Origin: Amycolatopsis nalaikhensis
GTDB taxonomy: Bacteria; Actinomycetota; Actinomycetes; Mycobacteriales; Pseudonocardiaceae
Assembly (NCBI RefSeq): GCF_030264295.1
Contig: NZ_CP127173.1
Location: 193,501-257,500 of the forward strand
Length of the DNA stretch: 64,000 nucleotides
Direction: 5' to 3'
In this document: piece after piece, positions 16,612 through 19,047 of the stretch
Layout: every line of letters starts with the position of its first letter
Numbering within the stretch: position 1 is the first letter of the stretch
Position numbers and translations under genes: made by a program
Notes under the pieces: model-generated
Told to the model about the DNA's origin: nothing
The model's database searches: none
Seen by the model: only the letters and a program-made list of their open reading frames with translations

Positions 16612-16634
16612 TCGGACCAGAAAGAAGGCACTCG

Positions 16635-17387
16635 ATGGGGGCACGTTTCGCAGGCAAGGTCGTCCTGGTGACGGGCGGCAGCTCGGGCATCGGCCGCGAG
16701 ACGGCGAAGGCGTTCGCGGCCGAGGGCGCGACGGTGGTCGTGGCCGGACGCGACGAGCAGCGGCTCGCGACCGCGGTGAAGGAGATCGGCGGCGACGCGA
16801 GCGCGGTCACCGTCGAGGTGACGGACTCGGCGAGCGTGGCGCGGATGGTCGAGACGGTCGTCGCGCGGCACGGCGGCTTGAACGTCGCGGTCAACAACGC
16901 GGGCATCCTCGGGTCGCCCGCGGCGGCCGCGGACCTCGACGAGGACGGCTTCGGCGCGGTGCTGACCACGAACGTCACCGGCACCTGGCTGTGCCTGAAG
17001 CACGAAGTCGCCCACATGCGGGCGCACGGCGGCGGCGCGATCGTCAACATCGCGTCGAACATCGGCGCGCACGGCAGGCTGCCGCGCATGGCGGCCTACG
17101 CGGCGTCGAAGGCGGCGGTGAGCGCGCTGACCCGCACGGCGGCGCGCGACCACATCGCCGAAGGCATCCGCATCAACGCGGTCAGCCCGGGCGCGACCGA
17201 CACCAAGATGTCACGGCGACCCGGCGAGACGGACGCCGACCGCGCGGAGCGGCTGAAGGGTGCGATCCCGCTGGGCCGGGTGGGTGCCACCGCCGAAGTG
17301 GCGGCCGCGGTGCTGTGGCTCGCTTCGGACGAAGCGGCCTTCACCGTCGGGCACGACCTCGTGGTCGACGGCGGGGCGACCGCCTGA
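16635..17387 (+). CDS. Short-chain dehydrogenase/reductase (SDR)
   Basis: This is a classical SDR of 250 residues. It has the cofactor motif TGGSSGIG (about 14-21), NNAG (about 88-91), the catalytic Ser in IVNIASNIG, and Tyr/Lys in YAASK (about 155-159). VSPGATDTKM and a GHDLVVDGGATA ending are typical. An Arg after the first strand (VVAGRDEQ) suggests NADP preference. The substrate is unknown. It forms a two-gene unit with the TetR gene; AAAGAAGG precedes the ATG. Confidence 0.92.
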   Translation: MGARFAGKVVLVTGGSSGIGRETAKAFAAEGATVVVAGRDEQRLATAVKEIGGDASAVTVEVTDSASVARMVETVVARHGGLNVAVNNAGILGSPAAAADLDEDGFGAVLTTNVTGTWLCLKHEVAHMRAHGGGAIVNIASNIGAHGRLPRMAAYAASKAAVSALTRTAARDHIAEGIRINAVSPGATDTKMSRRPGETDADRAERLKGAIPLGRVGATAEVAAAVLWLASDEAAFTVGHDLVVDGGATA

Positions 17388-17415
17388 GCGGTCCCACCCG
17401 GGCCGGCGGTTCCGT

Positions 17416-17436
17416 TCACGACTCACGGTTGCGCAT
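17416..17436 (-). CDS. Six-codon ORF 4, peptide MRNRES
   Basis: GAGAAGGGA lies 8 bases before an ATG start. The second Arg codon is CGT instead of CGC and Ser is TCG, both silent. It is the last copy; transcription continuing past it would run antisense into the SDR gene, which ends at 17387. Confidence 0.6.
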   Translation of the reverse strand: MRNRES

Positions 17437-17482
17437 GGTGACGATCCCTTCTCGTAATGGGACGAAAACGGGGCACGGGGGC

Positions 17483-17503
17483 TCAGGACTCGCGGTTGCG
17501 CAC
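17483..17503 (-). CDS. Six-codon ORF 3, peptide MRNRES
   Basis: GGAAGGAGA lies 5 bases before a GTG start. The remaining codons are identical to copy 1, including TCC for Ser and TGA as stop. Confidence 0.6.
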   Translation of the reverse strand: MRNRES

Positions 17504-17544
17504 GGGGCTCTCCTTCCGGGCGAAGCGGACAGGCGGCACTGGAC

Positions 17545-17565
17545 TCACGACTCGCGGTTGCGCAC
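17545..17565 (-). CDS. Six-codon ORF 2, peptide MRNRES
   Basis: GGGAAGGGAG lies 7 bases before a GTG start. The codons after it specify Arg-Asn-Arg-Glu-Ser with TCG for Ser, then TGA. It differs from copy 1 only in the start codon and the silent Ser codon. Confidence 0.6.
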   Translation of the reverse strand: MRNRES

Positions 17566-17605
17566 GGCACGGCTCCCTTCCCGCGTTCGGACCGGCGGTG
17601 ACGGC

Positions 17606-17626
17606 TCAGGACTCGCGGTTGCGCAT
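17606..17626 (-). CDS. Six-codon ORF 1, peptide MRNRES
   Basis: This is the promoter-proximal copy on the minus strand. GAAGGGAGG is followed by 8 bases and then ATG CGC AAC CGC GAG TCC and TGA. The product would be Met-Arg-Asn-Arg-Glu-Ser. No homologue is recognised. About 40 bases separate its stop from the next start. Confidence 0.6.
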   Translation of the reverse strand: MRNRES

Positions 17627-17650
17627 GGCGACGGCCTCCCTTCACTGCTC

Positions 17651-17674
17651 CGATCGTGTGGCAATCATCGATCG
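17651..17674. promoter_or_regulatory. Paired CGATCG sites upstream of the tiny-ORF array
   Basis: Two CGATCG hexamers, 12 bases apart, frame the sequence between the array and the diguanylate cyclase gene. They form an inverted and direct repeat at once. They lie 25 bases upstream of the first tiny start codon on the minus strand and could be an operator or promoter element. No confident -10/-35 pair was found. Confidence 0.25.
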
Positions 17675-17736
17675 CGGCCGCCCGGTGTGATGGGGTGGAC
17701 GCGGATCGTCGGATCACCCAGGGGAGTTGCACCGCC

Positions 17737-19047
17737 TTGAGTATGGACGGCGCCCGGCCGGCCGAGCCCCGCGTGGGCCGGATCCGTGGGGTGCTCGACC
17801 CTGCTCACTGGACCCTGTGGAAGCAGCGCCCGTCGCTGGTCTTCTACTGCTTCCTGGTCGAATCCGTCGCGCTCGTGGCGACCGTCTGGACGGCCGCGGT
17901 CGTGCCCGTGCGGGCCTGGGACCTGGTGGTCTTCGGCGTCCTGGCCGGGCTCGGCGTGCTGCAGGCGGAGCTGGGCAGGCAGGTCGAGCGCGTCCGGCGG
18001 CTGGTGTCGGACACCCCGCACATCAACCTGACGTCGGTCTGGACGTTCGCCGGCGTGCTGCTCCTGCCGCCCGCCCTCGGCACCGCCCTGATCGCCGTGC
18101 TGTACGTGCACCTGGCGACGCGCAGCCTGGCGCGGATGAAGCGCGTGCCGCCGTTCCGGACCACGCTGAACGCGACGCTGGTCGTCGTCACCTGCTACTC
18201 GGCCGACTTCGTGCTCGCCAGGCTCGGCGTCAGCGACATGTACGCGGCGCTCACGGCGGGCTGGCGCGGCGTCACGGCCATCGCGCTGGCCGCGGTGACG
18301 TACTTCCTGGTCGCGGCGATCACGATCCTCCCGGCGCTGACGATCACGACGCGGTCGGTGAAGGCGTTCTTCGGCGGCCTCGGCGACAACCTCCTCGAGG
18401 TCGCGACGCTCTGCCTGGGCATGCTGACGGCGTTGACGCTGGCGACGCTGCCCGCGCTCACGCTCGCGATCGTGCCGCCGCTGCTGGTGCTGCACCGCGC
18501 GGTGCTGATCAAGCAGCTGGAGATCGCCGCGACGACCGACGAGAAGACGGGCCTGTTCAACACGACGGGCTGGCACCTGCTCGCTTCGCGTGAGCTGGCG
18601 CGCGCCCAGCGCAGCACGCGGAGCACGTTCGGCGTGCTGATGATCGACCTGGACTACTTCAAGCTGATCAACGACGAGCACGGCCACCTGGCGGGCGACA
18701 CGGTGCTGCGCGCGGTGGCGGCGACGATCAAGACCGCGGTCCGCGACTACGACTCGGTGGGCCGCTTCGGCGGCGAGGAGTTCGTGGTCCTGCTCCCGGA
18801 CATCGGCCCGGCGGCGGTGCTGGCGGTGGCGGAGCGCATCCGGTCGGCGATCGAGCAGCTGAAGGTCGAGTACGAGGACGGCAGCCGCACGCGCGTGATC
18901 GGCGACCTGTCGGCCTCGATCGGAGTGGCGACGTACCCCGACGGCGGCACGGCCGTCGACCGCCTGCTGCAGGCCGCGGACAAGGCCCTGTACCGGGCGA
19001 AGGACGCGGGCCGCAACCAGGTGGTCGACGGCACGGCGACCGCCTAG
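17737..19047 (+). CDS. Membrane-bound diguanylate cyclase (GGDEF)
   Basis: About six to seven membrane helices occupy residues 30-265 (for example YCFLVESVALVATVWTAAVV). A GGDEF domain follows: DEKTGLFNTTGW, MIDLDYFKLINDEHGHLAGD, then the active-site loop GRFGGEEFVVLLPD. GGEEF is a functional variant, so synthesis of cyclic di-GMP is likely. No RxxD inhibitory site is obvious before it. GGGGAG at 17721-17726 fits a TTG start at 17737; ATG at 17743 is an alternative. The stop overlaps the convergent DUF262 stop by four bases (CTAG). Confidence 0.92.
   Translation: MSMDGARPAEPRVGRIRGVLDPAHWTLWKQRPSLVFYCFLVESVALVATVWTAAVVPVRAWDLVVFGVLAGLGVLQAELGRQVERVRRLVSDTPHINLTSVWTFAGVLLLPPALGTALIAVLYVHLATRSLARMKRVPPFRTTLNATLVVVTCYSADFVLARLGVSDMYAALTAGWRGVTAIALAAVTYFLVAAITILPALTITTRSVKAFFGGLGDNLLEVATLCLGMLTALTLATLPALTLAIVPPLLVLHRAVLIKQLEIAATTDEKTGLFNTTGWHLLASRELARAQRSTRSTFGVLMIDLDYFKLINDEHGHLAGDTVLRAVAATIKTAVRDYDSVGRFGGEEFVVLLPDIGPAAVLAVAERIRSAIEQLKVEYEDGSRTRVIGDLSASIGVATYPDGGTAVDRLLQAADKALYRAKDAGRNQVVDGTATA

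Follow-up and report, generated by a model that had tools for sequence, protein, structure and literature searches.

What is the role of four neighboring genes, each only six codons long and all encoding the same peptide? The genes lie in the window, by which we mean the whole 64,000-nt stretch of the Amycolatopsis nalaikhensis chromosome that was analysed. They form a tandem array of four minus-strand units, each led by a Shine-Dalgarno sequence (SD) and encoding MRNRES followed by TGA, at 17416-17626(-). All four have CGC, AAC and GAG as their second, third and fifth codons and TGA as their stop. The first, fourth and sixth codons are ATG, CGC and TCC in unit 1 (17606..17626; SD 17635-17643), GTG, CGC and TCG in unit 2 (17545..17565; SD 17573-17580), GTG, CGC and TCC in unit 3 (17483..17503; SD 17510-17517), and ATG, CGT and TCG in unit 4 (17416..17436; SD 17445-17453). 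The SDs of the four units are GAAGGGAGG, GAAGGGAG, GGAAGGAG and GAGAAGGGA, and the start-to-start distances are 61, 62 and 67 nt. The initial annotation of this DNA had described four minus-strand units 61-67 bases apart, with strong SDs and only silent differences; the units lie at exactly the positions it gave, and they differ solely by ATG/GTG, CGC/CGT and TCC/TCG. The array is real and not a product of chance, because the pattern RTGCGNAAYCGNGARWSNTGA matches only these four places in the whole 10.67 Mb genome, with no match for the reversed control pattern.

Is it the peptide that is conserved? The MRNRES pattern is found in 27 of 80 Amycolatopsis genomes (including this one), as one-strand clusters with 2-11 copies per genome. 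In the draft genome G051 the cluster is divided between two contigs, and this genome was left out of a peptide-blind scan of 26 arrays. That scan returned 171 SD-led units, every one of them MRNRES with no missense change, and also two longer in-frame starts of MRNRES units (MAMRNRES and MVRNRES). Silent variation occurs at all five sense codons, and one genome has switched a TCN serine codon to AGC. Starts are ATG in 59 units and GTG in 112, while TGA is the stop in all 171; L009 has one further unit, in which GTT stands in place of a start codon. Units are mostly spaced 59-70 nt apart (exceptions 82, 93, 95 and 127), and the spacers between them diverge, as had been claimed for the spacer DNA of the window. 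Within the 500 nt adjoining the neighboring GGDEF gene, tandem minigenes sharing a C-terminus occur in 26/26 loci of the MRNRES clade, in 0/26 on the opposite strand and in 0/520 dinucleotide shuffles. As judged by these sequence comparisons, purifying selection acts on the translated hexapeptide. The initial annotation had proposed such selection, and had advised searching relatives for SD-led MRNRES units; these were found, with a GGDEF ortholog adjoining. It had also named non-synonymous copies, or absence from relatives, as evidence to the contrary, and here the search found no missense unit and the one start-less unit of L009.

Which protein might the peptide act on? The array is divergent from a gene at 17743..19047(+) (alternative start TTG 17737), whose 434-aa product is a predicted diguanylate cyclase with a membrane sensor at about residues 20-255 and a GGDEF domain at 263-426 (PF00990, E 5e-44), and is the predicted receptor. 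It has a GGEEF motif and an RxxD I-site. The initial annotation had allowed for a signalling function, which has held up well, but overlooked this divergent gene. The intergenic region between the two (17644..17742) contains the putative promoters of the array and the GGDEF gene, and is well conserved in the MRNRES clade among the 12 loci listed from an alignment of 25. On the far side of the array, and convergent with it, is a gene for an SDR-type dehydrogenase (16629..17387(+)), sitting where many related loci have an MFS transporter gene; it is probably outside the system. Antisense to the SDR gene is an ORF of 107 codons (17096-17419(-)), whose overlap with the stop of the last MRNRES unit reads GTGA; it is probably spurious, since last units elsewhere often end TCCTGA.

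An ortholog of the GGDEF gene adjoins the array in 27/27 Amycolatopsis genomes with the MRNRES pattern. Among Amycolatopsis orthologs that are at least 61% identical, 32/32 have a divergent minigene, because those without exact MRNRES (61-82% identical) have minigenes encoding MRNRDS, MSNRDT or MRNRET. In a second genus, single MRNREW genes occur in 12/25 genomes, with the same divergent arrangement in 12/12. Exact MRNRE-S/W, the sole peptide pattern sought genome-wide, is present in 39 of 390 whole genomes of the bacterial family, and in 39/39 it lies beside this GGDEF family. The catalytic motifs are largely kept: of the 117 first-batch ORFs that bear minigenes, 105 have the GGEEF active site (eight of the other 12 are truncated at the locus end), and 95 of those 105 have the RxxD I-site.

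How far does this arrangement extend? Loci were gathered in two batches, picked by sensor family in chosen genomes of the bacterial family, and each place was counted once (L197 = L069, L207 = L067), giving 272. A minigene was defined by a fixed rule: an SD, a start and 4-9 codons, within 900 nt, with either an M..[RK][DE]x motif or a tandem partner sharing the last three residues. On the divergent strand, this rule finds minigenes in 167/272 loci, with 519 units, 117 peptides and 65 C-terminal tetrapeptides; the controls give 0/272 loci for the opposite strand and 10/2720 for dinucleotide shuffles. The units found are whole ORFs of 5-8 aa, with up to 11 per locus. For the 132 loci of the first batch that lie outside the two clades found first, a narrower rule (500 nt) detects the motif in 65 and tandems in 41; the opposite strand gives 0/132, and shuffles give 4 (motif) and 0 (tandem) of 2640. 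Peptide types are diverse, and include MRSKDL/MSKDL (11 units, L131), MSSRDF (8 units, L183), MTVRDW/MSVRDW (9 units, L166), MRNKSW (9 units, L219), MRNHNW (8 units, L224) and MRDKIW (3 units, L110). A single genome may have several pairs. In genome G058, for example, the rule finds five different pairs, with MRNRDS, MRNREN, MSRDN, MRGRDQ and MRNKEV (L060, L061, L062, L241 and L244). The genome of the window itself has eight sensor-GGDEF genes; beside them are MRNRES (four units), MCGRDN, MRGKEQ, and MRNRDA with MANRDG, a fifth has the MRDVNW pair described below, and three are without minigenes. At the level of sequence, both the divergent pairing with a motif-intact GGDEF gene and the existence of many paralogous pairs with different peptides are well established.

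These counts have a defined scope. Since the loci were chosen by their GGDEF sensor, arrays standing without a sensor are beyond the reach of the count, except for exact MRNRE-S/W, and their frequency cannot be derived from it. Left out were L016 (at the start of a contig), L028-L030 (repeats), L043-L055 (from named copies of genomes already present), L148 and L184 (short upstream DNA), L076-L078 and L132 (duplicates), L194, L217 and two others. Before duplicate removal, an exact 80-mer links 27 of 274 loci to an earlier locus; apart from the L197 and L207 duplicates, these are close relatives from other genomes. The representatives used for covariation share <80% sensor identity, and so are unaffected by duplicate loci. 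Within the bacterial family, the sensor matches 53/63 chosen genomes at E<=1e-15 and 56/60 at E<=1e-25. Outside it, there was no match in 197 genomes at E<=1e-20 (scoring was limited to 13 candidates per genome), and when every candidate was scored, 1/17 genomes had a weak partial match (L194) at E<=1e-3. A protein search gave 177 matches; among the 120 listed, one name is from outside the family, Fodinicola feengrottensis.

Which residues of the peptide matter? Within-array comparisons of 499 hexapeptide unit pairs, from 53 arrays other than MRNRES, show a difference in amino acid at position 2 in 151/499 pairs. At position 3, which the search rule leaves free, the amino acid differs in 0/499 pairs, with silent differences in 83. 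Silent differences at positions 4, 5 and 6, which the rule partly fixes, are found in 88, 46 and 9 pairs. Because position 3 never varies and position 2 does, the constraint sits in the four C-terminal residues, leaving position 2 nearly free.

Have peptide and sensor diversified together? Among 92 representatives with <80% sensor identity, a partial Mantel test associates peptide with sensor given the catalytic domain (r=0.294, p=0.001), whereas peptide and catalytic domain given the sensor show no association (r=-0.065, p=0.93). In the 45 loci with an MFS gene, the peptide-sensor association persists given both the catalytic domain and the MFS protein (r=0.177, p=0.004), with p=0.74 for MFS and p=0.39 for the catalytic domain, each given the others. 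Site-level coupling was scored with average-product correction, using catalytic-domain columns of similar entropy as surrogate labels. Peptide position -3 couples with sensor residue 192 (z 6.5; surrogates reaching the maximum, 0/40), position -4 with residues 187 and 101 (Tyr187 and Thr101; z 5.9 and 5.5; 0/33), and position -1 with residues 36, 202, 199, 142, 198, 32, 138 and 195 (0/38). Position -2 has no significant sensor coupling in the full set of 92 (0.231). Among the 92 representatives, Lys(-3) occurs with Ser/Thr192 in 26/26 and Arg(-3) with Ser192 in 0/57; Asn(-4) occurs with Thr101 and Tyr187 in 45/49; and Asn(-1) occurs with Cys36 and Ser/Asn142 in 10/10, while Trp(-1) occurs with Val/Ile/Leu36 and Phe142 in 33/35. 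A salt bridge between Lys(-3) and Glu215 was also considered; the 26 Lys peptides have Glu215 in 15 cases, Asp in 10 and Ala in one, mostly within one large clade, so this is a lead only.

How robust are the coupled positions? In the first 65 representatives, the surrogate fractions are 0.040 for -4, 0.061 for -3 and 0 for -1. With MFS columns as surrogates in the 45 loci, -1 holds (0.029), and the maxima for -4 (0.141) and -3 (0.174) are singly not significant. A replicate consists of 28 second-batch representatives, each <80% identical to the first batch. There, residue 192 ranks first for -3, residues 187 and 101 rank second and fifth for -4, and residues 198, 195, 202, 142, 32 and 36 are within the first eleven for -1; of the maxima, only that for -3 stands out from the surrogates (0.027), those for -4 (0.289) and -1 (0.85) being ordinary. 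The second set of loci recovers the coupled positions, with weaker statistics. On a tree built without 16 pocket columns, 5/5 changes at residue 192 coincide with a branch on which -3 also changes (null mean 0.30, 0/2000), -4 (13 changes) and residues 101/187 (16 changes) share nine (null 0.89, 0/2000), and -1 (24 changes) and residues 36/142 (33 changes) share 11 (null 5.5, p 0.0055), although these p values flatter the association because the tested sites were found in overlapping data. Statistically, peptide and sensor sequences co-diversify beyond what the catalytic domain or the MFS neighbor can account for, and do so at a few sensor positions.

Where in the protein are these positions? 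An AlphaFold2 model of the 434-aa protein (pLDDT 84.5) has helices at 30-53, 58-88, 97-107, 110-130, 137-160, 174-194, 213-235 and 237-264. The coupled positions would be near the cytoplasmic helix ends: 32/36 in TM1, 101 in TM3, 142 in TM4, 187/192 in TM5 and 195-202 after TM5. Residues 138/142, 187/192, 195-202 and 32/36 are at predicted cytoplasmic ends when counted back from the GGDEF domain with the positive-inside rule; this placement derives from the predicted model and that rule, not from coordinates. Of the top 18 positions for -1, the cytoplasmic side has 16 in the first set, 14 in the full set (surrogates 0.053) and 15 in the second batch (0.025); the positions coupled to -4 and -3 show no comparable excess. 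The location of the coupled residues near cytoplasmic helix ends suggests that the peptide is sensed from inside the cell. No Pfam family, MASE-family profiles included, matches the sensor part above its cut-off; MASE9 and FxsA each appear in 1/15 members, below cut-off. A Foldseek search with the full model gave, among the 50 matches listed, only GGDEF proteins and none to the sensor.

What is the most plausible function of the array? Our preferred reading, to which we give a probability of about 0.7, is that the divergent diguanylate cyclase has a ligand made by the minigenes, which it probably binds on its cytoplasmic side. The hexapeptide is a likely switch of the cyclase because peptide and enzyme have changed together in evolution. 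Specifically, the MRNRES minigenes would be the ligand-gene half of a two-part Pseudonocardiaceae system, in which tandem leaderless genes of 5-8 codons would produce a short peptide directly. That peptide would bind the membrane sensor from inside the cell and so set c-di-GMP output, with the last four residues giving specificity and position 2 being free. An array of several units, every one with a strong ribosome-binding site of its own, would provide a higher dose of ligand. It may also be, more tentatively, that the MFS transporter beside many but not all arrays moves the peptide, making the signal partly shared between cells. The broader proposition goes further and deserves somewhat less confidence, though we lean toward it: a large family of membrane diguanylate cyclases would have its ligands encoded in tandem leaderless arrays, a new kind of signalling with a residue-by-residue code (-3 Arg/Lys to Ala/Ser192, -4 to 101/187, -1 to 32/36/142) and at least five pairs in one genome.

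There are two other ways in which the peptide could act through the cyclase. It may be a secreted pheromone, exported by the MFS protein and then sensed outside or re-imported, placing c-di-GMP under quorum control. An MFS gene lies beyond the minigenes, convergent with them, in 90/170 first-batch loci, 89 of them in the same orientation, and it is associated with minigenes: among the 132 loci that remain when the second genus (12/12 with an MFS gene) and the MRNRES clade (1/26) are set aside, 77 have it, including 60/79 with minigenes and 17/53 without (Fisher p 7.6e-7, kinship ignored). Two MFS proteins that were scanned belong to PF07690 and match exporter-type models below those models' cut-offs, and having several distinct pairs per genome resembles specificity-separated pheromone systems. 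Against this, the peptides have no leader or export signal, the coupled sensor positions are on the predicted cytoplasmic side, and peptide and MFS do not co-diversify once the sensor is allowed for. Moreover, MFS export cannot be required in the MRNRES clade, since 25/26 loci there are missing the gene. We regard the pheromone as a possibility, on the unlikely side. Rather unlikely, too, is an intracellular gauge of translation, in which the level of minigene peptide tracks free ribosomes and is read by the cyclase with no role between cells. Repeated strong SDs, leaderless peptides, unstructured array RNA and a predicted cytoplasmic-side pocket are all consistent with such a gauge, but it predicts neither an MFS neighbor nor many distinct specificities.

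The other readings dispense with the cyclase, and are far less probable. The initial annotation had offered three functions, of which a signalling peptide is now the best supported; the other two, a RiPP precursor and a ribosome-acting minigene, have fared poorly. MRNRES is short and contains Arg-x-Arg, and was said to fit the +x+ motif of ribosome stalling, as in macrolide-type stalling or resistance peptides. However, [RKH]x[RKH] occurs in only 45/117 distinct peptides, position 2 varies within arrays, and action on the ribosome would not predict pairing or co-diversification with a GGDEF sensor, making this explanation barely tenable. The precursor of a modified, biarylitide-like natural product is very improbable: MRNRES has no aromatic residue, from which the initial annotation had already judged a biarylitide unlikely. 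Biarylitide precursors are comparably tiny (PMC13417212) and some arrays of the family are Trp-rich, but the window's array neighbors are an SDR gene and a GGDEF gene, the recurring neighbors are GGDEF and, in many loci, MFS, with no modifying enzyme noticed to recur among the flanking genes annotated, and the residue coupling is to the GGDEF sensor. There is also scarcely any likelihood that the array is a structured non-coding RNA, a set of DNA-binding repeats or an antisense control of its neighbor, with its coding look incidental. The spacing is regular in most MRNRES arrays and the array runs toward a convergent gene, but silent-only codon changes (TCN/AGC included), interchangeable starts, retained SDs and divergent spacers all argue for coding. 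In addition, the window has no match in Rfam or in a tRNA search, the array RNA folds less than all 200 of its shuffles, and the convergent neighbor varies between SDR and MFS.

If the minigenes do encode ligands of the cyclase, which known systems do they resemble? Phr/Rap and other RRNPP systems of Bacillota use peptides of 5-7 residues, with many paralogous pairs per genome, recognition in the cytoplasm and specificity residing in few residues; a Phr peptide is released by cleavage of a secreted precursor, and its receptor is a soluble TPR protein. By analogy, the present system would work most like Phr/Rap signalling, sharing short peptides, many paralogous pairs and predicted cytoplasmic recognition by few residues. 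It lacks the defining features: the peptide is the entire product of a 5-8-aa ORF in a tandem array rather than part of a secreted precursor, and the partner is a membrane sensor with a GGDEF domain rather than a TPR receptor. Like MASE-type sensor diguanylate cyclases, the partner has a multi-helix N-terminal membrane sensor, a GGEEF active site and an RxxD inhibition site, but its sensor has the distinction of matching no Pfam family above cut-off. Macrolide-resistance and ribosome-stalling minigenes (E-peptides, MRLR-type) are also very short ORFs, and MRNRES is likewise Arg-rich; here, however, the motif is not conserved and the partner is a GGDEF gene. Biarylitide genes are similar in size, at about six codons. 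In PMC13417212, the precursors have five residues from an 18-bp gene, genes of this type escape automatic detection, and a P450 partner and an aromatic core are required; neither was seen at the window array. The minigene-cyclase system is apparently undescribed. Neither these minigenes nor peptide ligands for sensor-linked diguanylate cyclases were found in the literature searched, which covered few subscription papers and no bioRxiv; a search for five peptide strings matched only a sugar-beet bZIP paper, and PMC8325347 concerns RsiG.

What would follow if the preferred reading is true? A class of signals would be hidden under the size limit of gene annotation, finished hexapeptide ligands would be made directly, without leader or processing, and c-di-GMP enzymes would gain a genetically encoded class of ligand. 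To our knowledge, the ligands of most diguanylate cyclase sensors are a long-standing open question, and the covariation gives a concrete, testable recognition code. Many antibiotic producers belong to the bacterial family, and c-di-GMP controls development in Streptomyces, so the peptides may also offer a handle on both development and the making of antibiotics.

Not all sensor-family loci have an array. By the fixed rule, 105/272 have no minigene; only some of them can be put down to clusters in which additional GGDEF genes accompany a single array. Representatives without minigenes (92) and with them (101) differ at conserved sensor residues: Arg86 is present in 60% versus 93%, Asn216 in 43% versus 87% and Thr222 in 61% versus 92%, as if minigene-less sensors, changed at 86, 216 and 222, read a different input. 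In the genus g30, several sensor-GGDEF genes are set close together with an array at one only (L095/L129/L142; L218/L242; L219/L247/L252/L282; L221/L243/L276; L265/L250/L255). For example, genome G276 has an array beside one of four neighboring GGDEF genes (L219) and none at L247, L252 or L282. In such clusters, to go by their gene order, one array may serve several receptors. In the genome of the window, inspection by eye found MRDVNW and MRDDVNWTR beside a paralogous GGDEF gene (L081; G000:C1, about 831 kb); this pair is outside the automatic rule and uncounted, and resembles the MRDNNWT arrays of L160 and L164. Finally, a set of two genes about 100 nt apart, MRNRDM and M(F/I/S)DNRDM, a hexapeptide and a heptapeptide sharing NRDM, recurs at L103, L107-L109, L261, L266, L267 and L274.
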